Source: Romanomermis culicivorax
Taxonomy: Eukaryota > Nematoda > Enoplea > Mermithida > Mermithidae
Length of the DNA stretch: 64,000 bases
Assembly (NCBI GenBank): GCA_963922205.1
Contig: CAWUHX010000141.1
Span: 372,001 to 436,000, forward strand
Direction: 5' to 3'
Shown here: piece after piece, positions 3,301-48,900 of the stretch
Layout: each line of letters opens with the position of its first letter
Position numbering within the stretch: position 1 is the stretch's first letter
Translations under genes and position numbers: made by a program
Notes under the pieces: model-generated
What the model saw: the letters and a program-made list of their open reading frames with translations, nothing else
Told to the model about the DNA's origin: nothing
The model's database searches: none

Positions 3301-6300
3301 CGTTTTGCTACAAAAAGACCTACTACTATCTCGTATTTCGCGTTGTAATTCGTTCATAATCAAGTCAGCATAAGAATTTTCCGTTGAGAAAATATGCAAT
3401 AACGCCAAAGCCAACCGGTGTTTATCTTCGTCCGTGGAAATATCGGCCAATAACTGACAGAGATCAAAATTATTGACCCGGAGTATCTGAGAAAATGAAG
3501 GAAAGTTCTCGTATATCTAGACAAATTATACCAGTTAGAGGAGCAGCGGTTTCACATTTTTTTTAAATATCCGTTCAGCTTCTCAATTTTTCATAATATT
3601 GGATCAGGTTCCTAAGAAAGTACGAAGGATACTGAATTGACACAGTAAACTGACGACTAAGCTAGTGCCGAATTTCTCAGTCTGCAGTGATCGAATCACC
3701 GTTAGTTCCAGCCAGTTTGAATTTAGCAACCTGTGTTGATTCAAGTTTTTATATGGCGGCGTATCCATTCCGCCAGAGTTTTTTAAGCCATTATCCCAAT
3801 TCTGACACTTTACTCGCCACGGAATAAATTTCTTCGGTTTCATATTATTATACCTTATTTAATTAAAAATTACCATGCGGAACAAGGAAATTAAAAACGG
3901 AAACAATACAATGTATGAACACAGATGTAACGGGGCCCCGAGGTCTGGGGAAGGGGATCAACGATTTTTTTGCGCCGGAGGTCAGTAATTCACAAAATTT
4001 TGGGGGAGGGGTCCCTCAAAGAAAAAATTCGATTTTATCACGAAAAAAGTCGGAAAAATTGTAATTTTTTCTGTAAAAAGACCGAAAAATGTATTCATCG
4101 AGCAACGCGGTGAGAAAATTTACATTTTTGACCATTTTTTGTTCAAAAATTGACATTCGTCAGTATTTTTTCGACCAAAAGTATGGGGGTCCCTACGGCT
4201 ACCATTTGGCTAGCCATAGGATTGGAAAATCCTGGGGGCGGTCGCCCAATGGCTAGCCATATGGTCGACGATATCTGGGAGGGTTGGTTCCCATAGCACT
4301 CCCCCCAATTACATGTATGTGTACGACACACATGTCCTCAGAAGGTAAATTTAAAATGTATACAATAAACTCCAACTGGTCCACGCTTCCTTATGAAATG
4401 ATTTGCACAGATTTTCTCGAGATGGAAATGAATATAAATTGCGCATCAGCTCAAACGTGATATACGGAAGTCCAGAAGTGTACATTCAATACAACTATTA
4501 ATATGCTATAATACACAGCCGATAGAAATTTTTTGTTTTAGATTTCTGAAACTTTGGAAAATTAATGTTTTCATGTATTATGAAAATCAAAATGAATCAT
4601 TAGTGGAAGCGTTTAGAACCGATATTTTCTTTTAAAAATATCAATTCCTATTTCAAAATTTAGAGTTATTTCGGTAGCGGTTTGTGAACTTCAGCCGGTT
4701 AATAAATACCGTTGCTCCTCTTATATCAGTCAGTCAGTTTTACTTCGAATAAACTACCGTACTCTTCCAAGGGCATAATTTTTTGTCGCTGATAACGTAA
4801 ATATAGGCGACATTGACCACATTCCATATCTTTAGATTTTACTTTGAGCCAGTCATGAATGACGAAGGTATCTTCGTTGCGATGTTGTTCATCGGGCGAA
4901 GATCTTTCGTTCAGAGCAATGTCGATTTTAACGCAACCTTATTTAGTATAAAAATAATTTTAGTCAAGTTGAAATATACTGAAACAAAAGAAAATTAAAC
5001 CATCAGTAAATTTTGATTAGGGAGAAGACATTGAAGCTCACCTAAATCTGAATGCCGCTGCAATCGTTTTGATCGTCCATAAAAATTTAATGTCACGTTA
5101 GAAACTTCATTATGCACATTTCTAAGTAACAATGAAAATAAGCACAAAGAACACATAAATATTTTGGTAAATCACTCTAGATCAATTTCCTCGTTGATTA
5201 GAACACTCCCCGCTGATGAACACCCTATTACAGAGGAATTGCTGCCGTTGGAGGCAGAAGGCGTGTAGTAACCCGTACGATAAATTTTAGCGCCATTGAT
5301 CGATAGAATGGCAAAAATGTCAGCGTAGTTTTTTGAATTTTCGTATCTGAAAATATATAATTCAATTAGAAAATGAGAAATTTGACAATTCATATGTGGT
5401 TGGTGGTTCGGAAAAAAGATCACCTGAAACACCTCTCGAAAATTTGTTTAAAACTAGTTTAAATTACTATTCATAGATGATCACAATGAGCGTTTTCATT
5501 TGCACTCTTAAGATCAGTTGGATTTTGAATATATCTCTTAAGCTGTATTTTGCCTCAAATTAATCGATTTTTTAAGATTCTGTCAGACAATAATCATAGA
5601 AAACAGCGAGAATTAATGATTTTATATCAGACAATTCCAAAAATACATCATATCATACATGTAATTGGGGGGGGGGAAGTCCTATGGGAACCCCCCCCCC
5701 CAGAAATCGTCGACCATATGGCTAGCCATTGGGCGACCGCCCCCCCAGGATTTTCCAATCCTATGGCTAGCCATATGGTAGCCCTAGGGACCCCCATAGT
5801 TTTAGTCGGAAAAATACGAAAAAATGTCATTTTTTCTATGAAAAATGTCAATTTTTGAACAAAAAATGGTCAAAAACGTCAATTTTCTCGGCGCTTCGCG
5901 CCATAAGTATATATTTTATCATTTTTTAGACAAAAATTACTACTTTTTAAAACGTTTTCGGACATTTTTCACAGAAAAAATCGAATTTTTTTTCCTTCAG
6001 GAATCCCTCCCCCCAAAATTTTGGGAATTACTGACCCCCCCCCCGGACCTCGGAGCTCCGTTACATGTATGCATTAAATGCTGACGTGTACAGACACTAG
6101 AATCATTTCGCCAACGAGCGGATAAGACAGGAAAGTCAGACCTGGTTACTGCGAGGTAACACGTTTAGGCGGGCCGACCTTTTAAACCCCTGTACATAAA
6201 CAAGTAATAACACAGGCGTGAAGTCAAAGAATTACAAAATGAAGAATCAGCCGCAGAAAAGTCGTAAATTTAAGTGAAAATGTAGAATTTCGCGCCAATT

Positions 6301-19519: not shown

Positions 19520-19939
19520 TTTTGCTCCAAATTAGAAGATTTAAAAATTCAAATTCGGTGGGACCTGATGGCTTACCAATAATAATATTAAAAAGATTAG
19601 CCAATTATTTAGTCCATCCATTAAAAAAATTTTCAATATTTCTGTACTGACTGGACGCCTTCCGAGCATCTGGAAAATGGCTCATGTGACTCAAGTTTTG
19701 AAGAAAGGGATCACGAGTGAAAGTTCCAACTATCGGCCTGTATCTTTAACTTGCGTTTGTTGAAGGATTCTTGAAAAAATCATAAAAGCTCAAGTGACCA
19801 ATTTTCTTACTGTAAATAATTGTATTTCTGATCGTCAGTTTGGTTTTGTGAAGAAAAGATCCTGCGAAACCCAGCTCTTACTGTTCTCTAAATACTTAAT
19901 TGATAACATTGACAAAAAAGGGCAGTTGATGTAATATAT

Positions 19940-20761
19940 TTGGATTTTTCTAAAGCCTTTGACACAGTACCACATTTAAAGCTCATTGCAAAAGTGGAAA
20001 AATATGGTCTCAAGGGAAATTTATTGTCATGGATTACCGATTTTCTTCGTAATAGACAACAAAGAGTTAAATTAAAAAACACCTTATCTACTCCTCAAAA
20101 TGTAACAAGTGGTGTCCCGCAGGGCAGTGTTTTGGGTCCTTTACTATTCCTTTTATATGTCAATGATATAGATAACCTACCACGATCACCTGAAGTAAGC
20201 CTGTTTTTGTTCGCTGATGATATAAAAATCTTTAGCTGTACTGAAAACAGTGGGGACCTTCAAAAATTTCTAGAATCCATTGTCAGATGGTCTGAAATTT
20301 CTCAACTAACTCTCTCTACTTCCAAAAGTAAGGTAATGCATTTTGGATTTGATAACAAAATGAAGAAATACAAAATTGACGATAGAATAATTGAGGATAC
20401 TGACAATTATGTTAAAGATCTTGGTATTTTTTTAACCAAAAATTTTAAATTTGATGAACATATAGGCCATATTACAAAGAATGCTTACTACAGATTACAT
20501 CTTATATTTCGTCGATTTGTAAGCAAAGATAAATTTTTACTGACTAATGCATACAAAACATACGTCAGACCTATTCTGGAATATGCAACTACCATTTGGT
20601 CACCCCACTCAACTAAGAAGATCAGAGCCATTGAAAAAGTACAGAAATACTTCACAAAAAGGGTTCTCAATTATCCTGAGGTTTCTTATAATGATCGTTT
20701 AACTGTATTAAAGTTAGAGAAACTTGAAAGTAGAAGGCGTTTGAACGACTTGGTTATGTAA
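19940..20761 (+). pseudogene. LINE reverse transcriptase core
   Basis: A 273-codon open frame spanning RT motifs A (DFSKAFDTV), B (GVPQGSVLGP), C (LFADDIKIF) and the thumb. The second catalytic pair is FADD rather than YADD, which is common in non-LTR elements. It is open only within a wider frame-broken element, so I treat it as a relic. Confidence 0.85.
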
Positions 20762-25452: not shown

Positions 25453-26245
25453 GCAATTTGTTATGAAACCGGTCTTGTGAATAATTGCACCACATAGAAA
25501 AATTTTTCTACGAGTGACCATTGTACTGTCAATTTTAGTATCAATGTTAGAATCAAGGATAAAATCATTTGATTTCAGGAAAGCTGATTATGAATCTCTT
25601 CAAATCTATTTGGCAAAAGTCGATTGGACAGATTTTTTTGAACAATGCATTACTGACTGGAATTTGTTCCCAAAAAGAAAGAATTCTCAAAAACCTCTAG
25701 ATTCCTTAAGTATCTTTTGAAATTAAAATCAATAAAGAAAAACTTGTGGAAAAATTATGTTAAAAATCGTAGTTATGCTAACAAAAATAGACTGAAACAC
25801 AATTCCAAAGTCTTGAAAACTGCAATGATCAAATATTATGCTAGAAAGGAAGAATGTTTGCTAAAATCGAATTCAATCAAGGATTTTTATAGATTTATCA
25901 ATAATAAAACTCAGTTGAGACACACTATCCCTGTTATTGTTTGTGGTGAGTCTGATATAACTGATGATAAAATGAAAAGTGAAATATTCAACCAATATTT
26001 TGGATCAGTATTTATCTTGGACAATGAAAAAATCCCTGAATATTCTCAAAAGCAGTTTAATAAAGATTTATCAATCAAATTTGATTTCTTAAGAGTCCTA
26101 TTGACTCTAAAATATTTGAAGCCTACACTGTCTCTTGGTCCTGATGGTCTGTGTTTCTTTTTCCTGAAAAAATAATATTTAGTTTTGGCAGAACCTTGAG
26201 AACAATTATTGAAATTTCATTTAGAACTGGACAATTACCAGATAT

Positions 26246-27543
26246 TTGGAAAACATCAAATGTGGTACCTATTTTCAAAAAAAGGACCCAGCAAAGGTAG
26301 AAAATTATAGACCAGTTTCTTTATGTTGCGTCTCATGTAAGGTTATGGAAAGTATTATAAATGTAGACATGATGGCTTATTTTGAGTCAAACAATTTTCT
26401 GAATGATAGACAATTTGGATTTAGAGAGAAAAAATCTTGTATCCTTCAGCTTTTAAGTTGTAAAACATTATGGGCTAAAAATTTGGATAAAAAAGTAGCA
26501 ACAGATTCAATTTATATCGATTTTCAGAAATGGTTACATGGTTTTTTATTTAATAGGACTCAACAGGTAAAAATTGGCAATTGCTTCTCTAATCCAATTA
26601 AGGTTACTAGTGGGGTTCCTCAGGGTAGTGTATTGGGACCAACATTGTTCCTAATTTTCATAAATGATATATTTGATGGTATTAGCAGTGAAATTTATCT
26701 TTTTGCTGATGATGTGAAAATATTCAATGCTACAAAAAATGCTGAAGTACTACAAGGCGATCTTGTCAAAGTTTATGAATGGTCATTGAAATGGCAATTA
26801 TCTATTTCTCTGGAAAAATGTTCTGTTTTGCATCTTGGGAGTAATAACCCCAAAGTTGAGTATTATATAAACGATTTTCTGATCCCTACTGTTTCAGAGA
26901 TGAAGGATCTTGGTGTTATGTTCAATGAAAAATTGTCAGCAACTGCCCATTGTAATTATGTGGTTAAAAAAGCATCTAGGGTGGCAAATTTGATTTTAAA
27001 ATGTTTCCACTCTAACTTCAATGAATTAAAAATCAGAGCTTTTAAATCCTATGTTCTCCCTATCCTGGAATATGGTTCACCACTCTGGAATCCTTGTCTG
27101 GTTGGGGATACTAAATTGGTAGAAAAAGTTCAAAGAAGGTTTACAAAAAGACTTTTTGGATATAAAGATTTAAGCTACAAGGAGCGCCTCAACAAATCTG
27201 GCCTTGATGACATACGTACGTGTATCGACCTATCTTACATGTTCTTAATTTTGAAATTTAAAGTTATTCCACCCGACTATTTTTCACTTTGAGTCCATTC
27301 AATTATCGCGTGTCTAACTTATTTAAATTGTATAAATCGAAATACGCTTTAAAACATGATTTTTGCTCGCGAAATATTGATGTTTGGAATTCCCTACCCA
27401 ATGATATCATTCATTCGAACAATATGCCCTGTTTTCGGTCTAAATTGAGTCATTTTTTTAAAGCTCAATTCGCACGTGCTTTTGTCACGTCCATGAGCTT
27501 TTCTGTATTAGTCGCATTTACTCTTGTATTTATTCGCATTTAA
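26246..27543 (+). pseudogene. LINE reverse transcriptase with internal deletion
   Basis: Contains YRPVSLCCVSCKVMES, YIDFQK, GVPQGSVLGPTLF and LFADDVKIF. Directly after YIDFQK the sequence jumps to WLHGFLFNRTQQVKIG, missing about 25 residues present in the neighbouring LINE. One frame change near 27,290 splits the C-terminus. Confidence 0.85.
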
Positions 27544-36913: not shown

Positions 36914-39900
36914 GTAATTTTTTGTCCTTACGATGGCATTTATTTAGGATTACCTATAGCATGTTTCTATCAGGTCCGATTTTGCATAACTTTTACTGTA
37001 CAACACAATTTCATAATTTTTTTGAATTTGTAGAATTCAATCATTAAGAAGTAATACTGCACGGTTTTCTAGACAAAAATGACCATTTTTTAAAAAGTTT
37101 TTCGAACCTTTTTGGCGAAAAATCATTTTTTCCTTTAATGACCCTCCTAAAATTTTTCGCAGTTGTTAACATCAATCACAAAACAGTCACTCTACCCCCA
37201 GCTTTCGAAGCTTAGTCAGATATATATTACTGATCCAGTGTCACTTGCGGAATGGTGATTATAGTTGCAATTAGATGAATTATATATATCTCAGGTTGAA
37301 TTCCTTAATACTAGCTCAATTTCCTATGCTTTAAAGTGAGGTGAATGCAAACTCTCTTGGTAACCATTTTTCTATCAGATTGCGACCTTACACATCTTCC
37401 ATTGTATCCATAGTACACCATCTCCTGAAATGTTTGACTGTCAACAAGCTCTGCATAGTCGGCTCATTTTAGCCAAATACAGTTGTAAAATGTGATTTTT
37501 ACGTATATATCATGGTTACTTGTTATCTCAACTGTATTTTCTATTTTAACGTTTTTTGTTGTATAGTTTAATTTATATTATCTTCCATTTATGGCCATGA
37601 ACCACAAGATTTTTGTTTGTTACGCACATCTCTTGTTTCATATGCTAGCAAGTTGGTTCTTTTTTATTGATCATCCAGCTCATATCCCCTGATGATATTA
37701 TTCTCCATCCATTTTCCACGTTTGCTTGTATAAAGCGGGTTTTTATAAATTGGGTTCTGCCTTGCTTAACTTACCTGTATCCTCGATATCAAGGTGAAAA
37801 GCTTCGATAGTTGATACTGCTCGGCGCCCGCTCTCAAATAATGATGTTATGAGCAATGTGTACATGTGTGAATATATAATTATAATGACCATTACGCACT
37901 TCTTCTCCATGGAATTAAAGCTAGAACTTCCTTACACACTTGTCGCTAAGGCAGTTTATTGCATGCCTTGCTTTCGTTCTTTCTATTTCTTTGCCCACCC
38001 ACCTCAACATCTTCTGAGCCGCGAATGGCCTAGAAAAGTAAAGCGATGGGCTGTGCGAAGAATATTTTATCGAATTTTGGTCGAATCAATATGAGGAAAA
38101 AATTACAGACCGATTATAGAATCTTCCAATGCTGACATGCTTCACATGTGATTTTTGTGGTTCTGTGAAATATTTATCACAGTACACATGACCTCTCAGT
38201 AATGGTAATAGACCAACCATCTCCCGCAGGATCCTCACTACTCGGAAGTGGAAAATGTAGCCACTTATACCACAAATCAGGAACAACATTCGAAATCAAA
38301 GTTTTGATAGCAATATTAGTGATTTTGAAGTTCTGTGTTATGGTAACAAACAGTGTTCTCATTAAATTCATGCTGATCAAAGATGCGTAGAAAAATTCAC
38401 TCCAAGTTCCGGAGGAAAAGTCTGCTTTCTGTAGCAGCTTTTGTCAGGAACAATTGACAAGGGTTGCTATCTGACCACAAATGGTTGACGAAAATAGCCG
38501 GAATCGTAATCCTTGATCTATGGGAAACATTAGTCTCACGGTGGAACGTGTATACATGTAATTGGGAGGAAGTGCTATAGGAACCCCCTCCCCGAAATCC
38601 TCGGCCATATGGCTGGCCATTGGGCGAATCACCAGGATTTTGCAATCCTATAGCTAGCCATATGGTAGTCATAGGGAACCCCATACTTTTGGTCGGTAAA
38701 ATACTGAAAAGTATCAATTTTTGATGAAAAATGTCAGTTCTGGAACAGAAAATGGTCCAAAACGTCAATTTTCACTTCGCTTCGCGTTATAAACACATTT
38801 TTTACCGTTTTTTAAGACAAAAATTTCTATTTTTTGAACCGTTTTTCCGGACTTTTTTGTTGAAAAAATGGTTTTTTTTCTTCAAAGACCTCTCCCCCCA
38901 AAATATTGGACAATCACTGACTCCCGGCCTAGCAAAGTCGCCCAAATCACCCCCAGAGACCTCGGGGCCCCGTTACAAGTATGGAAACGTGTATGCCAAT
39001 GTCAGTATACAACTTGGCGGAGTCACGAACACTTCAATCATCCTCAAGTTATTGAGAATAAGATATCATTGACCTATTTCTTACATCTTTTAGTGATTAG
39101 CTTAAGTATATGCCTTGAACAAGTATTTCTAAGCTGGCAGGTCAAAGCAGAATAATTTGATCCCTTTACTGGCTATCAACGTTATTGTGTATCTAGTCCA
39201 TTTTTGATGTTTGGCTATTCTCTGTGCCTTACCCAATTATTTGATTAAAATCAATGAAAAGTAGAAGCTTAGAAAATGAATATTCAATTAAATGAATGAC
39301 TGAATGTGTCTGTTTATTTTTGAAACTTCGTTTTTATAGTTTCCAACACCAGTTGCAGCCCAAGCACTGGGTGCACCCGGCGTTTCTTGGAACCAGCGAG
39401 TGGCCGGCTCGCTGCCCAACGTTTTCGAGATTGCGTATCGTGCTCAGGCGCAAAGACCGGACTTGCAAGTAAAAATTGTTAAAAATTTCGTATGAATGTT
39501 AACGTGAATAGTAAGGTGTAGTCGCCACATTGCCACCGTCTCAACATTGCCACCAAAAAATCCCAACATTGTCACCGTCTCAACACTGCCACCATCCCAA
39601 CATTGCCATAAAGTGGCATCATGGATAAAAATTTGGCGCTACATAATGAGATATAATCTTGCGAAGCAAACGGGGTGCCTTCAAATTCATGAAACATGTG
39701 AATTAATCATACCGTATTTAATTTTCATCATTTTTTTGGAAATCATTGACTTCTGATGGTTAATTGGGGTTGCTCTTTTCGGTGCACGTTTGCACAACCA
39801 GGGCGTTCTGCATGCAATTTCTTCAGGTAGGCAGTAACGTCTTTCTTGATATCAGCCTTGCGCTATGTACAAGTGGACGAAAATCTTATGCGTGCAAAAA

Positions 39901-42900
39901 ACGCTTTTGTAGGTTTAAAAGATGATGATTTTCGTGCTAGTGTTCGTCGATATTTGGAGCACTTAGTGTACCTGCTTGGTTGAAATTTTTGATTGATTGA
40001 ATAAAATTGAGGAAATAAGTTATTTTTAAAAGAAGTTGGAAAATGGAGACATCAGTTTGCTTCACAAAATCATATGTCAGCATGTTATGCCCTCATATCA
40101 AATAGTGGCAGTGTTGAGATGGCGGCAATGTTGGGATTTTTTGGTGGCTATGTTGAGACGGTGGCAATGTTGGGGCACAATCAATATTAAATACCGATTT
40201 TTGAATCCCAAAAATAGTAAAAACTTGAACATTTCTTGTTCAACCCATTTTCGGAATCGGAACCCGCATAAGCAAACTATGTTTCCTACAATTTTTGAGA
40301 TGATAATGTTGCACAAAAGTTGCATGCAATTGAAAAGTTTGCATCGGTTACATGGAGATATTTTGAAACTAAAATCTATCATCCCTTGCAATCACCGAAT
40401 ACTCTTCTGGGTCTAGATGTTAATTTTAGCGAAAAATTATTTATGGCGATTCTGTAATTATTTGTGAATGTTAAAATAGAAAGATCTCACTCTCCCGGAA
40501 ACCTAGTTTTCCGGCATAAGCCTCTCAGCAAATATTGAGATTTTCTTGGGGATTACACTGGAAATTACCAGCGCTGCCATTCAAGCTGATGTAGATTCTA
40601 TGGATTTGTCGATGTTGTCGTGTCAGCCTCGTTGGACTAAAGATCAAGGGCCATAAGATAGAATATTTCTAAGGGCGACGAGTCGCAAACAAGTTCGAGG
40701 TATCAAATGTTGTGTATCACATGAAAAGTATCATTTCTTGCTGAAATAAAAACTTATGCGACCTTATTTGTGAACTGCAAAAAGTTGAGCTGATTAATGC
40801 TGAAATTTTTCTGGTGAAGGATTCGAAATCAAAACATCAAATATGTAGTAGAGGTGTAGACGGAATGTTGGACTTTGATGTTGTGTGATTTGAGGTTGTT
40901 TGAGGCGGTGCTTTGTCCACAGTTTCTGCTATGGAAAACGTTTTGTGCAAGGTTATGCCGAAGCTCGTGTGAGTATTTTGTCAGCGATTCTGTTTTATGC
41001 AGCGGTAGGCTTGTCGTCACCCCCATGCGTTTTCACCCGAAAATATTAAATGAAATTTTCTAAAATTTTTACTTCAGACGACAGAGTTATATAAGTGAAA
41101 ACCTTTAATGACATTCTGTGAACCTGAACGTTTATCTCACTTTTGTGCTTATATCATTTTTTCATTTATTTGCACCCTGATCGCCACTTCGATAGTTCTG
41201 AACGTTATACTACCGAAAGTAATCAGCGCACACCCAATATAGATTGATAAGTAGGGAGTCGTCGAACCGGTTATACACAGAAAATCATTTCGAAAGAAGT
41301 AATTATTAAAAACTGCTTGATATATCTGTTTATTACTAGATAATCAAATCTGACTAATTGAAGCACGTAGACATTGCATTAAAATATGAATAATTTTTCT
41401 CCATCATCGTGTGACACCGTATTCGTACGTTATCTAATCCGGTTTTTGTAGGCGGGAGCTCATTCAATTCAAACATACCTATAGATTGCCGGGGGGTGTT
41501 CTCATAAAAAAATTTGTTTCTGAATCGTCATGTATTAAAAATTAACTCAAATGTACTGTTTCGTAAGTCTTGCAGTTTCTTGACCATCTTGTTCGCAGCA
41601 TTTTATATCGGAATAAAATTCAGGGCTGAATTGATTAAGTTCCAATCGATTTTTCGTTTTGGGAACCGAATGTTGAATTCGTCTCAAAACTCAAACACAT
41701 AACTGATTCAATTTAGATCAATATTTTCTGATTCAAGGCCTTCGCTAACCCCTTATTATACGCCAATCAATGGCCGGGGACGTCCGCCCACCCTAATACG
41801 GCGGCAGCCGCCCAGTTGATGGTGCAAACGAATCAACCTAACGCACAATGTCCCGTCAGCCAGTCGCCCGTGTATCTCTTGCATCAACAACATTCACGAG
41901 AAATCGGCCAGCCTAGCGGTTATCAACGATCTAGTCATCAGCAACATGCTGTTCATAGGTAAGTTTTGAAATATCATGCATACTATTTCATGTCCAGCTT
42001 TAAGGCACAAGTGCTCGAAGGGCCCTAGTTTTTTTTACGTTGCTGATGCATAGATCATTTATTGTGCGCACAAGCCTAGGCCTATGTTCGAGAATCTCGT
42101 ATTCTAATAGCTACAGTACATCTAGAGCTACATTCACTTCAGTAAACCACTATTTTTTCGTTTCAATTTTCACTTCATTTGGTAATGAGTAATCTATAAT
42201 ATTCTGCCATTATTGTGTGTGGAAGTACCATAGCAAAAAAGTAAACCTTTGCTGGATCGTTTATTTTGATTATTAGTTGCGCGAGTTGCTGTTCTCACTT
42301 AAAGTTACAAATCACAGCTTCTTTCGTTGGCAAGCTGCTTATGAATTATTCGAAATCTGTTTAAAACTTTTTGAAATTGAACTGTCGTTGGTTACCATTA
42401 CACGTTTTTTAAAATTGAAATGGAATGATGTAAACTATGTTTTCACAAAAGTTTAAAATTCTCCTGTAATATTTTGAACCTGACGACTAAAGAAAATCGC
42501 TGGATTTGATAGGTTTTCATTCCATCATCAGGACCATTCCACGGCTTTTAAAATCGAATCAAGTTCTAGCATATGCGAAAATTTAGAACATCATATCTAC
42601 TTTCCGTACTATATTAATGTAACTCTCTGAAGCGGACCATTCTTTAAATCACGCCGTACTTTAATGGGTTTATTAATTACGAACAAGAATTTCTAATGTA
42701 GCTTTATTTAAAATAAAACTGATTAAATGTCATAAAAATGCATTTTCGAGCTTAGTTCGACTCAAACTACCTTCCTGAATTTTTCGATTACTTCATTTCT
42801 AAACGTGACTTCGACTGTTGGGAACGCCGTTTTTTGAATGTAGTAATTGTCATTTTTGAAGAGGTCGCAGTCCCGGCAGCCATCCCCATTATCACCCTTA

Positions 42901-45900
42901 TCGCACGCCATCACCTCACCATTCGCCGGTCGGCAGCGCCGTCGGCTCACCCAATCTGCGGGCCCGCAGCCCCGATCGGCCGCAACTTACGCCGCCTTGC
43001 CAATCGGCTTCATATCTCGTGCCGCCTCAGGATAGCGGTTGGCGGAGGTATTCATTGTCAAACTGACACTTTTCTGCATACATTTAACGAAGTTCGAAAG
43101 TCGGGAAGATTCAGCAGTATTTTTAATGGGTGTGGATCACACGTCGATCACAATTTTTTTGATATTAGAACGCTGAAAATTGAATTTTGTCAACATTTAT
43201 TTCCTGGATAAGCGGTCCAATTTTGCATTCAATTGAATTATTTTCCATACAAGAATAAAATGTAAAAATCATATTGAAAGCAGGTAGCTTGAAAATCCGC
43301 ATGATATGAAAATCGACCTCGTGCACAAAACGCCATAAAAATTTTGTGTACGAGCTCCAAAAACTATGCTAAGTGCACAAAAAAAACCCTAGTTTACTGT
43401 CGCCATGTAGTTAGTCATATGATCGACGATTCCAGAGATACTCCGATGGTGTCCCCTATTACATGGCGTCTTTTGTGACTGATCTTATTCTCTGCACTCG
43501 AGCCGGATACTGTTACAATACGTTTTTTTGTGTAGAACGCACTCCGATCCAGGTATTCACGCCAGCGTGACGGATCCAAATGTAATCGGCCAAAATGTTG
43601 ACGGCCAATTGAGTTACCCTTCATCGGCCATGAATCATATGGATTCCTCCTGTAGGTTTTTCCTTTGAAATGAAGAAATATATTTTAAGGTCGTGTAATC
43701 ATTTCAAGGTAATTCTCCCAATATTGACGTGAATATGTCCAACGCTTACCTTGATCCTAAAGTGAGTTATGAATGCCTCATGTTATATTGTAACTTGCAA
43801 ATGTATGTTAAATTTTATCTATTCATTCTCGACATTTTTTCTTTTACTATTTTGACTTTTAATTGTTATAGCTCAATTTGTATTATCCCGGAGTTTTACG
43901 ATCAAAACCGGACGATCCGGGGATTAATATGCAAACGTTGAAGTAAATCGATTTATTATTTTTGCCATAGGATTCGCAAATTGAACGCTGTGTATATAAC
44001 GTTTTAAAGCATTAATCCGGGCGATTTGTCTGCCGGTAGTTCGCAAGCATCGATCTCAAGCAACACAGGATCTCTGCCCGATTTGACGCAAGTTCCGCCG
44101 TCAACGATGGGTCAGCCGCCAACAAGTAAGCGGCGAATGCTGACGATATTTTTGCTAATATCGGTGAAAATCCATAATAGTAATTTTCTTGTTTTTATTT
44201 ATTTCTTCTTAATCTACGAACACTAAAGGATACCTCGCAAATTCACGTTTATTCCAATTTTCAAACGTGCTGATTGCGTAGCAGGTATCTGAAATGTGAT
44301 TATCCAATTTTTCCCTTTGTAATTATAAAAGCTTAGATTAATTCTATTGACTTTTTCTGATATTTTGTAGCAGAAAACTGTATGAATAAATTACTTCAGA
44401 ACTTGACAAACTCGGCTTTTTTCGCGTCCTTACTTGGCACAATTGTTACATTCATAATACACGTTTTGCAGACCATCAAATCCACGTTTAGCTTTATTCT
44501 TTTTGAAAAGCCAAAAATGATTAGAATTTGTGCGATCTTAGCACTTGAGCGACGTCGAATTTTCATGAACTGTCAACAGGGGCCGTATTCATAAAGGAGG
44601 CTAAAGTGTATAATCTATAGACAGAGCTAAAGTCTGTAGACCAGTCCACATTTAGACGGACTAAAGTCTGTATTCATAAAAGATCTTTTTGGCTGTCTAA
44701 ATGTAGACCGGTCTATAGACTTTAGCCCGTTAGAAAAAGACCAGTAGAAACTGGTATTACTAATAGAATCAAATATTAGCAACCATAACTTTAAATAATT
44801 AAGATAGAACTTTTTGAAAGATGTTTTTGGGATAGTCTCAGCGAGATCTACAGATCGATTGCTAGTTTGTCGCATTCTGGAACAAAAAACTCAAATTCCC
44901 AGAAAAAAAGTTTCCCAATCCGTAAATTTAAATGCAGCATTTTCAAATATGCTATAACAGAAAATACCATTAATTCCTAATTTCTCAGTCAAATATTTTA
45001 TCATCATTATATCTTCCAAAAACCTTTGTATGCGATAGGATAGTCGTTGAAGTCTCCTCACTGATAAATGTTCACCATAATGTTGCTATTTGTAAAAAAT
45101 TCCACTTTCAATCACTGAAGAGAAAAAGTCGGATAAATTTATATGCCTTTCATATGTATTAATGAAGCCTAGAAGTAAAAAATACTCCAAAATATTATGT
45201 CAATCATTGAACAAAGGGCATAAGCGTCGCCATGCCTCAGCTCTAAGTTTGAATAAATTGAGTTAAAAATAATTTCTACCATCATGTGTAAAAAACACAA
45301 AACTAACGGACATAGTCATATATCTCGTTGATCCCTGATCAGCATAATGAGCGTCAGACCAAGATTCACAGCTGATGAGGCAGCAATCATCGTTACAATG
45401 TACTCAAAAAGAAGGGAAACAATAGAGCAATGACTACACCTTGAGTAATGAAATAATTTTAAACTTTTATCATTGAAACAGATAACTAGAACAGCAGAAT
45501 AAGCATGTCTGACGTATTCCTCCCTTGCAAAATCGCAGGAATAGTTTTTTCTATGAGTCTAACTTTCATTAACTCGACGAATCAATTCCGTATTGTTCAA
45601 TACATTTTGACGATCAAAACGAAATCTTTGCATGAGTTTCCTATCATACGAATCTAAGGAATGTCGTATATCTCGGAAAACTCTTTCTCGCCTCAACACC
45701 CTTTGATATTCAACAACCAGATTTTAAAAAAGGCACCCATTTCAATGAAAAATTTTGGGCTAAATACATTTAGATCGCTAGGGTAGCAAATTTTCGTAGC
45801 AGTCCAAGAGTCGGATTGTGTCTCACTTTGGCGCCCGTCTCAGTTTGGCGCCCATCTCACTTTGGCGCCCAACGTTGTAGGCGCCAAAGTGAGACTGTTG

Positions 45901-48900
45901 TCTTATTTGGCGCCCATCTCACTTTGGCGCCCATTGTTTAGTAATGACTTTTCTATGATTTCTTAGCTTTGCGACCATCTCACATTGGCGCCCTATCGTT
46001 CTCTTCTCTGAGAACATTGTAAATTGTAGGATTTCGCACAAAATTCACATGGTAATAAGAATTAACGTAAATGTCGTTGAATCTTGAATTATCAAAAATT
46101 AATTGTCAAAAAAATGTCAAAAAATTAATTACAAAGATCTTGTTAACTTTGCTGATTTACTGAAATGTGAGATTTTATTTTTTTATTTATATAATTTCTT
46201 TATTTATATATTATATTTTTATTTATTCACCATTTATTTAAGTAAGAAGTGAGCATCAAATTATTTTATTGCCACACTAAATATTTTCGGCGGTTTTGAG
46301 CATTTCACGTTTGATACGCTAAGCTTCAACTTCGGATCGGGTAAGAGGCACCTAAAGTGGTTTGTGACTGTGATCCGGATTTGATTGCACCCTGCCTTCA
46401 CGAACTGTAGCACGACCCATGGGATTCCCATGGGCGTTGCATGAAACGCATTCGAAGTACATGACTTCACCACCGATGTCTAATCGTTTCACTTTTTTTC
46501 TTTTTGAACAAATAAAAATGATCCGGATTAACTCTACTTTCACAAACCAACATTGACATTAGACCATGCAAAAACGATTGTGGGTCAATTCTCCGACTAT
46601 TTCGATTCTCCGACTATTTCGATTCTCCGACTGTTCCGATTCTCCGACTGTTTCCATTCTTCGACTGTTTCGATTGTTCGACATAATGCGAAATGCTAAA
46701 AATAGAATTTTCGTTTTGTAGCTTTTCTCCGACTGTTGCCGATTGTCCGACTTCTCCGATTATCCGACAACATTAATGTCGCGTTTCTTCGACTGTGTCG
46801 ATTTTTCGACTATCTCGATTCTCCGACTATATTGTATTACTGCATATTTTGCTATATTTAATTCTTTCTGTTTGTTTATTTCGGGTTTTCTCCAATCACA
46901 AAGTAGCATATTCAAAAACCACTGTTTCGCTACAGCCACCAGAATAAAAATACGTGCCCCACTAAAGCCACCAATTATTCAGCGACTGTCCCACTACATC
47001 TACCACCAAAAAGTTATGTTCCATTAATAGTTAGCAGTAATATTCGTGTTTTTTTATTTTCCCTCATTGACATGAAGGAAAAAGGTTTGTAAACAAAATA
47101 GAGAGAAACAAAAAACAAATAGACAAATTAAACAAATACAACTCGAGAGAAATAGAAAAAAATAAAACCACAAAAAGTAATTGAACAAAAATACTAAACA
47201 ATTGAGTAAACAAACCAACAAACAAAAACAGAACAAAATCAAATCAGGGGGAGAAATAAAGAAAAGATATGAAGAAAACAGAAAAAAGATAATGAAAGAA
47301 AAAATTAATAAAGAAGAGCTAACAAAAGCAACAGATTTAAGGAAGAAGAGGAAGCTAGCTAGAAAAAACAATGGAAAACAGATGAATGGGAAAGACAAAA
47401 AGATAAATAAAGAATGAAGGCAGGCAATTTTTTTCTAATCTTATTTCGTATATCTTTCACTTTCTTTTATCTTGCTTTTTCTTTCTTCTTTTTTTATTGT
47501 TACCGTTTTCGTTTTTTCTTTTAATCTTTCTTTTTGCTTATTTTTCTAAAAATCTTTCTCCTTCGCTTACTGGTTTGTTTACTAGTTCGTTTTCTTTTCT
47601 TGATTACTCTATTATTGTTTTCTTTTGTTTTTCTCTACTTCTTGGTTTTTCGTTGTCTTTGTATATTTGCTCATTGGTTCTCTTTCGCTCTATACATGCT
47701 TGTTTTTCCTCCAAGTTAATAATAAAATATAAAAGCTAAAGCTATCAACTAAAACAAAAAAATATTGATGGCTGAAACGAGACAGCAGCTGTAGCAAGAC
47801 ATCTGCTGAATAATTGGTGACTGTAAAGGGACACCAATTTTCGTTTGGTGGCTGTAGCGAGACAGTGGCTGCAGTAGCACAGTGCTTATCATCAGTTCCA
47901 TTCATATGTTAATTAAGTTGCGTTTTAATATATTATGAGATAGCCTAAAAATATATTATTCCATAGTCGGACAATGGGAACAGTCGAAGAATCGAGGCAT
48001 ACGTAGAAACGAAAAAGTCGGAGAATCGCTACAGTCGGAGAATCGAAATAGAACGGCAAAAACAAGATAAAGCGAGCTTCCCCGAAATCGGCCATTTCCA
48101 TCATTTAGGGAGAGAAAAGTTCAGAGTGGTCTGAGCTATTTATAGCCATCATGGTAATGTAAAACTGCGCGTAAAATTTGCACATGGCTTGTTTAGTAGG
48201 ACATACAATCCGCCAAAATAGGACGGGAACCAAAGTGAGATGGGCGTTAAAGTGAGACGGGCGTTAAAGTGAGACGGGCGCCAAAGTGAGACGGGTGCCA
48301 AAGTGAGACGAGGCGCCAAAGTGAGGCACAGCTTGGGCGCCTTAGTGAGACTGTACCAAGAGTCGACCGATTTAGACCGAATTTTAGACGTTACACTTTT
48401 TATGAATACCGTTTTTCCCGACTTTTGTCTATAGACCGGTCTATAGGCTTTAGCCTTTTTATGAATACGCCCCCAGATATTCCGCCGCCCCAAAATCATT
48501 TTCATTCACTTTTATAACAAATACAGGGAAAGCCAAAAAAGGCAACCGTTGCTGACTTCCATAACTTTTGAACGGATAAAACTTTTTTAATGCGGATTGC
48601 TGCATTAAAATGCCCTGTTTATCTTTGCTATAAAGGTGAAGCTTTATGCTCCTAGCTTTCGTGGTTACTGTACAAACAGGAATTTGGTAAGTGATCATTT
48701 TTCAAAAAGTAAAAATTGTGAAATCAAAGTAAAAGTGTCCTATTGTGAGAAAGGTTTTGAAAAGTTTTTTACACACAATAATACTCAGAAAGTCACCCAG
48801 ATTTGTAAGTTACACGTAATTTAAAGTCATTAACTTCTTGTATCAATATGGGGTGAAATTTCGCCAAACTCAAGAGCTTTTGTTTTGAAATTGGAAGAAA

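Follow-up and report, generated by a model that had tools for sequence, protein, structure and literature searches.

Three stacked DNA transposons in the nematode Romanomermis culicivorax, the inner two from a probably Mutator-like foldback group

How does one foldback come to lie inside another, and is such stacking a matter of chance or of preference? The question is raised by a 64,000-nucleotide stretch of the nematode Romanomermis culicivorax (contig CAWUHX010000141.1, C141:372001-436000 of the 359-Mb assembly GCA_963922205.1), where several pairs of inverted arrays lie one inside the other between positions 44577 and 48476. Below, the window is this whole stretch; L1, L2 and L3/4 are the layers of the nest, and labels such as L009 denote separate loci in the genome. 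The nest is made of three insertions, not four: an outer element (L1), a foldback inside it (L2) and a second foldback inside L2 (L3/4). As a whole, the explanation that we consider very likely is that of three stacked DNA transposons, the inner two being members of one Mutator-like foldback group that would be mobilised in trans. The layers, their target site duplications (TSDs), the empty sites in other copies, the relatedness of the array units and the transposase sequence inside group members can all be read directly.

Layers of the nest and their order of insertion

The nest consists of the following parts.

44577-48476, no strand assigned: L1, outer element with a terminal inverted repeat (TIR), CAGGGGCCGTATTCATAAA starting at 44577 and CTGGGGGCGTATTCATAAA ending at 48476; about 1.35 kb without its insert
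45806-45813, plus strand: left copy of the 8-bp TSD of L2, AAGAGTCG
45814-48357, plus strand: L2 foldback with 17-bp arrays (TCTCACTTTGGCGCCCR), GATTGTG end on the left and ..TGTACC end on the right; 1056 bp without its insert
45820-45995, plus strand: left array of L2, interrupted, with one unit inverted
46568-46575, plus strand: left copy of the 8-bp TSD of L3/4, GCAAAAAC
46576-48055, plus strand: L3/4, a single foldback of 1480 bp, GATTGTG end on the left and ..ATAGAACG end on the right
46585-46830, plus strand: left array of L3, 17-bp period, interrupted
46919-47002, plus strand: left arm of "layer 4", unit TCTCGCTACAGCCACTG in the common register; part of L3/4
47060-47715, no strand assigned: core of L3/4, A-rich then T-rich, its self-complementarity mostly from composition
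47787-47900, minus strand: right arm of "layer 4"
47965-48050, minus strand: right array of L3
48056-48063, plus strand: right copy of the TSD of L3/4, GCAAAAAC
48208-48350, minus strand: right array of L2
48358-48365, plus strand: right copy of the TSD of L2, AAGAGTCG

A preliminary description of this DNA had placed inverted arms here, and both the pairs and their unit motifs are found, far above chance. The L3 pair reaches 83% over 86 nt, the L2 pair 88-90% over 51-52 nt and the L4 pair 87% over 31 nt, and the unit motifs occur 13, 9 and 3 times in the window, where 0.04, 0.01 and 0.00 are expected. The core, which had been called self-complementary, is only weakly so once its composition is allowed for, since its score is attained in 8 of 300 dinucleotide shuffles; we no longer regard it as a strong inverted repeat.

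Four nested elements had been proposed. The nesting itself stands but the count does not, because layers 3 and 4 are one element: in all 22 other copies of L3/4 that were fetched (L009-L028, L049, L050) the layer-4 arm sequence is found within the layer-3 sequence, and the idea of two separate elements was dropped. In 21 of the 22 the left layer-4 arm falls within collinear coverage, while L022 is partly deleted there, its deletion extending into the left arm. Other damaged copies are L027, without the right half, L015 and L020, without much of the right layer-4 arm, and L026 and L050, where part of that arm is missing. The arms of L3/4 consist of outer 17-bp arrays of GATTCTCCGACTRTTTC and inner arms built on a second unit type. 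L3/4 is an old composite of these two array types that was amplified as one unit; the layer-4 part may have entered by an older insertion.

The order of insertion can be followed in other copies. The left part of L1 is matched by 40 scored genome places, window included; in all seven other copies fetched from these, the match runs unbroken across the site of L2. Likewise, the match runs across the L3/4 site in 14 of the 14 other L2 copies fetched, none of which has a hit to the L3/4 interior. Because of these empty sites and the 8-bp TSDs, L2 was inserted into L1 and L3/4 then into L2: the order L1, L2, L3/4 is confirmed as sequential insertion. The earlier suggestion that layer 2 had entered the outer element holds. 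The direct repeat described around L2 is also present, but its length is 8 bp (AAGAGTCG) and not 10 bp (CCAAGAGTCG): on one side CC is part of the element end ..TGTACC, and on the other it matches by coincidence.

Could the whole nest instead be one composite that moves together, an alternative already raised in the preliminary description? This is true of layers 3 and 4, which occur together in 22 of 22 copies, but not of the nest. When positions 45806-48350 are used as query, the window is the only full match among 40 scored places, and the rest match either the L2 part or the L3/4 part. One other pairing of an L2-type element with L3/4 exists (L017, on C122); there L3/4 sits at a different site and the core of the host is different. 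Given also the empty sites, a single mobile nest is extremely improbable.

Palindromes are prone to assembly error, and the preliminary description had considered that the nest might be an assembly palindrome. Such a palindrome, or a collapsed artefact, is hardly credible here: all three elements have separate copies in the genome, empty copies exist, L2 and L3/4 each have their own TSD, and the listed arms of the nest are 73-93% complementary, never 100%.

The history of the nest would then be as follows. L1, a TIR element, would have landed in what is probably a CRTC intron. A non-autonomous foldback, L2, would have entered near the right end of L1 with an 8-bp target duplication, and a second foldback, L3/4, would have entered L2, again with duplication of 8 bp. 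L2 and L3/4 were most likely moved in trans by transposases of the Mutator-like element (MULE) type, supplied by larger members with the same anatomy.

The intronic position is probable because a six-frame listing has CRTC-like exon pieces near 36.8 kb and at about 39.3-39.5 kb, with a possible further one at 51.3 kb. Elsewhere in the window the listing has reverse-transcriptase-like frames at about 19913-20758 and 25657-27289, which by eye resemble a long interspersed nuclear element. Just inside its left end, L1 has a 40-nt inverted pair (44626-44726, 85%), a subterminal hairpin of its own.

A diverse group of foldbacks with 17-bp arrays

L2, L3/4 and families elsewhere in the genome form one diverse group, probably Mutator-like and of uncertain clade. 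Its members have unlike ends, GATTGTR opposite another short motif, together with subterminal inverted 17-bp arrays and 8-bp TSDs. Most copies of L2 and L3/4 begin with GATTGTG and finish with TGTACC or ATAGAACG. The GATTGTG end of L2 is matched with at most two mismatches at 184 places in the genome, and at none in the reversed control. A script found end pairs in 30 of the 38 copies tried, taking the best pair where several candidates existed; the TSD is 8/8 in 14 of these and 7/8 in 7, and L015 and L051 reach 8/8 by eye with one end moved by one base. With long inverted 17-bp tandem arrays, and a TSD of at least 7/8 in 21 of the 30 end pairs, these elements are foldbacks by structure. Their 8-bp TSD falls within the range of 8-11 bp given for MULEs in the accessible text of PMC6446971.

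The four arm sequences had been described as unrelated. This is contradicted by the units: L2 and L3 have arms of related 17-bp units, and so, with less certainty, does L4. When the units of seven families are compared in the register set by the GATTGTR end, 202 of 357 pairwise positions match against a mean of 102.8, a value reached by none of 20,000 shuffles, and each of the seven scores best in that register. For ten units the matches are 423 of 765 against 210.6 (0/20,000 shuffles and 0/20,000 random rotations), with T at position 1 and C at position 12 in all of them. An earlier pairwise test, in which the units could rotate freely, gave weak results (P 0.45, 0.15, 0.017); the relation is clear only when more families are compared, and in the register fixed by the GATTGTR end. 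The idea of the register arose from the first five units, while L47, L48, L54 and L61 were found later and fit. Two of the ten units are less secure, as proven arms are lacking in L60b, which has only two or three units, and the end of the L54 host is GTTGTG, not GATTGTG; the seven-family test uses neither.

At least eight array families share the GATTGTR end and the 17-bp register: L2, L3, L9i, L16i, L47, L48, L61 and a family with a copy in the window. L54 is probably a ninth. The window copy is a further, non-nested member of the group:

39515-40182, minus strand: group member with unit TCTCAACATTGCCACCG, GATTGTG end at 40182 and TSD AATAGTAA/AATATTAA (7/8)

Another copy of this family is found inside the L2 element at L055. 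A candidate at L010:5120 with an AATTGTG end was rejected as a member since its unit fits the other strand, and it is counted as an array only.

L3/4 is not the only composite. One arm of the L9i family is present in a subfamily of L2 (L051, L052, L056; E 9e-27 to 3e-31). At the threshold of that comparison the window L2, L029, L030, L031 and L054 show no L9i-arm match. Composites of two array types have therefore been amplified as units at least twice (L3+L4 and L2+L9i).

Which transposase would move these elements? A genome search for the MULE domain (PF10551) gave 122 hits. Two of them lie near L3/4 fragments, and both are inside foldbacks with 17-bp arrays: L047 (4105 bp, TSD 7/8) and L048 (3660 bp, TSD 6/8). 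Three further places were picked from 148 protein matches, L059 for an L2 end within about 2 kb. L061 is a complete member of 3568 bp with a GATTGTA end, inverted 17-bp arrays and a TSD of 8/8 (GTTTCTTT). L059 is a related MULE-bearing foldback that has entered an array in an L2 copy; the foldback has a TSD of 7/8, and by eye its units recur every 17 or 21 bp. At L060 a MULE piece lies near a one-sided array only.

The transposase evidence consists of domain-model hits to short open pieces. PF10551 is above cut-off in L048 (E=2.2e-7), L061 (E=1.2e-6) and L047 (E=6.6e-5), while L059 has E=5.6e-5 but 24 bits, under the cut-off of 27.6. The pieces of L047 and L048 have 46-47% identity over 79 and 92 residues, and those of L047 and L061 have an N-terminal CX2C...HX3C pattern in common. 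No zinc-finger model scored above cut-off, the weak scores being RYYR-CCHC (E=0.13-0.15) and CHC2 (PF01807, E=0.00096 in L061, below cut-off), and no FLYWCH hit was found in the pieces scanned. Within the match L047 has two stops and L061 none; L048 is frame-shifted by eye. In the flanks of the first ten MULE loci (L037-L046), a GATTGTG end combined with a 17-bp array is not seen. Searches for the P-type (PF21787) and KDZ (PF18758) transposases gave no match in the genome, and none in the control genomes either.

As three foldbacks and one related element enclose MULE transposase sequence, with TSDs of 6-8 of 8, the group is probably Mutator-like. The shared ends, units and TSD suggest that a MULE transposase also moves the L2 and L3/4 of the window. 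In Galileo, a foldback of the P superfamily in Drosophila, the tandem TIR repeats hold multiple THAP binding sites, according to PMC3688188. Galileo has a P-type transposase, versus MULE here, while foldback TIRs with tandem repeats occur in both. By this analogy the 17-bp units are putative transposase-binding sites, and non-autonomous members are probably moved in trans.

A number of observations weigh against reading the nest as three DNA transposons with two Mutator-like foldbacks inside. The TSD match is 1-6 of 8 in 9 of the 30 end pairs, 8 of the 38 copies have no pair, and the two ends of the group form no clean TIR. TSDs of other members are mixed (L16i insert 5/8, L055 insert 6/8, L017 host 4/8), and the L9i insert at L009 reaches 8/8 only when its end is moved outward by one base. 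For layer 4 neither a GATTGTR end nor a TSD was seen, and its unit fits the common register less surely, as 61 of 5000 shuffles reach its score. The window layers have no MULE hit on the list for C141, and of other transposase types KDZ and P-type, the two searched for, gave no match; no MULE-bearing member with an L2 or L3 unit was found. Further, L1 has no convincing TSD: the 8 bp on either side of the window copy do not match, and no clear duplication is seen in the other copies compared. L1 is not of the GATTGTR foldback group; hAT, whose ends its CAGGGG end resembles, was considered as a candidate class.

Nesting frequency and target preference

The preliminary description suggested that foldbacks are preferred targets for others of their kind. 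In 36 fetched copies of L2 and L3/4 there are six events of within-group nesting: L009, L016 and L055 contain a member, while L017, L030 and L054 lie in one. The sample is made of high-scoring copies, except L049 and L050, which were fetched for their gaps and add no event. L049 (an L9i-like fragment inside another transposable element, TE) and L034 (rearranged) were left out of the count, and the window nest, L047 and L059, which were selected as nested or near, were left out of the estimate.

As background, the flanks and the window, about 178 kb together, contain three non-nested arrays (window 39.5 kb, L010, L019). The number is still three in about 255 kb, with the L1 loci, the ten MULE loci and two 9.9-kb stretches chosen arbitrarily added; a weak hit at L006 is not counted. 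This background is uncertain because the reversed control of the array scan also gives hits (one in 213 kb; three in 90 kb). A gamma-Poisson estimate, for which the host bodies were manually set to about 46 kb, expects 1.15-1.65 events versus the six found (P 0.006-0.025), an excess of 4-6 times over a rough background of three arrays.

Insertion near the centre of a foldback, with the hairpin or cruciform as its cause, was also proposed. The five relative positions measured are 0.92, 0.72, 0.04, 0.94 and 0.86, the first two being the off-centre insertion points of the window nest, and insertion at hairpin centres was dropped. Five of nine within-group insertions, classed by eye and with the window, L047 and L059 included, fall within arrays, whose share of the host is 22-30% (P 0.035-0.099).

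It may be that no target preference is involved, and that members of an abundant group, tolerated in TE-rich introns, come to lie in each other by chance. The array background is not small, as it extrapolates to about 4,000-6,000 arrays genome-wide. Unrelated TE inserts are also present within group hosts (L023, L028, L049, L050, L053), and these hosts are therefore not targets of the foldback group alone. The accessible portion of PMC3903597 says that coding MULEs of maize and rice rarely enter other TEs, which we place on the same side. The six events where fewer than two are expected, and the share of insertions in arrays, stand against chance. We consider chance stacking evenly poised between right and wrong.

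Two kinds of unrelated insert can be described. At L023, positions 3393-4114, a different insert in an L3/4 copy has ACCCGGATCCGG repeats and GATGAAACGG-type inverted ends, with no 17-bp unit. A repeated TE with GGCCCTGTCATACTTC-type ends, rich in GGCGCCGCGCGG, is found at L049, L053 and in the flank of L029; in L049 it carries the L9i-like array fragment.

Alternatively, a transposase bound to an array might steer insertion into or near other arrays, so that members are preferred targets. Nesting at seven other loci (L009, L016, L017, L030, L047, L054, L055) and at L059 would fit, as would the enrichment estimate and the array bias. However, the numbers are small, the background is three arrays, and the choice of L047 and L059 depended on a MULE hit close to a group member. 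Further, the host of the window L2 is outside the group, and plant MULEs are described, in the same portion of PMC3903597, as favouring low-copy or genic DNA. Self-targeting is a tentative and rather unlikely reading. Of the suggested preference for own kind there remains a modest case, in that the inner two elements are of the same kind and nesting exceeds expectation; L1 is of a different kind, and the estimate depends on three background arrays.

A wider version of self-targeting, which we think improbable, takes the 17-bp arrays as family-specific predicted binding platforms for paired zinc-finger MULE transposases. The units would drift with the transposase while the 17-bp register stays fixed. 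Related transposases would still be attracted to the arrays of neighbouring families, leading to cross-insertion, and nested pairs would be co-mobilised into new composite families (L3+L4, L2+L9i). If this were true, the lineage in this genome would recruit itself and expand through nesting.

Relation to known elements and significance

The nearest described anatomy is that of Tm1, a Mutator/Foldback family of root-knot nematodes. As far as the accessible part of PMC3169594 describes it, Tm1 has, like the elements here, asymmetric 7-bp end motifs outside the inverted repeat, short-unit tandem arrays and a foldback shape, with a rare large member that has a MULE transposase, many non-autonomous members, nested insertions and TSDs of mostly 8-10 bp. 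It differs in its CGGTTAA and CCTACCC motifs, a unit most often of 14 bp, a TSD of usually 9 bp and a reported FLYWCH. Here, GATTGTR is combined with ends such as TGTACC or TAGAACG, the units are 17 bp in many diverged families and the TSD is 8 bp. With end motifs, unit length and usual TSD all different, we reject the group as Tm1. A purine-rich core like that of L3/4 is seen at L017 (minus strand, about 4740-5350) and in the L016 insert, and recalls the purine-rich motif D of Tm1.

Other MULEs share some traits. In the accessible text of PMC6446971, Spectre is found in arthropods with 8-bp TSDs, and Phantom in several invertebrate phyla with 8-10 bp where given. The one complete Spectre element has two perfect 74-bp TIRs, unlike the foldbacks here. 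Phantom combines FLYWCH with the MULE domain; here the comparison, at the level of domain models and motifs, gives the CX2C...HX3C pattern in L047 and L061 and no FLYWCH hit in the pieces scanned. Like L3+L4, plant MULEs with multiple TIRs, as PMC3310237 presents them, have one TIR pair inside another with no internal TSD, and some of them have been amplified. Both of their pairs are of a single TIR type, whereas the array types of L3+L4 differ. Foldbacks with 17-bp arrays and these ends were not found described in the titles and starts of abstracts listed, in a search that most subscription papers lie outside. The TU elements of sea urchins are foldbacks with short tandem units of about 15 bp and 8-bp TSDs.

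In the cited literature foldback families are described singly. Here at least eight families in one genome share an end and a register, with 8-bp TSDs in most. Three of them enclose MULE transposase sequence, and together the families offer a ready-made set of end sites that have diverged, in some cases with a transposase of their own. The co-evolution of site and transposase is directly testable in this set. Further, the recurrent nesting and the amplification of two composites point to a concrete way in which a foldback may acquire layers.

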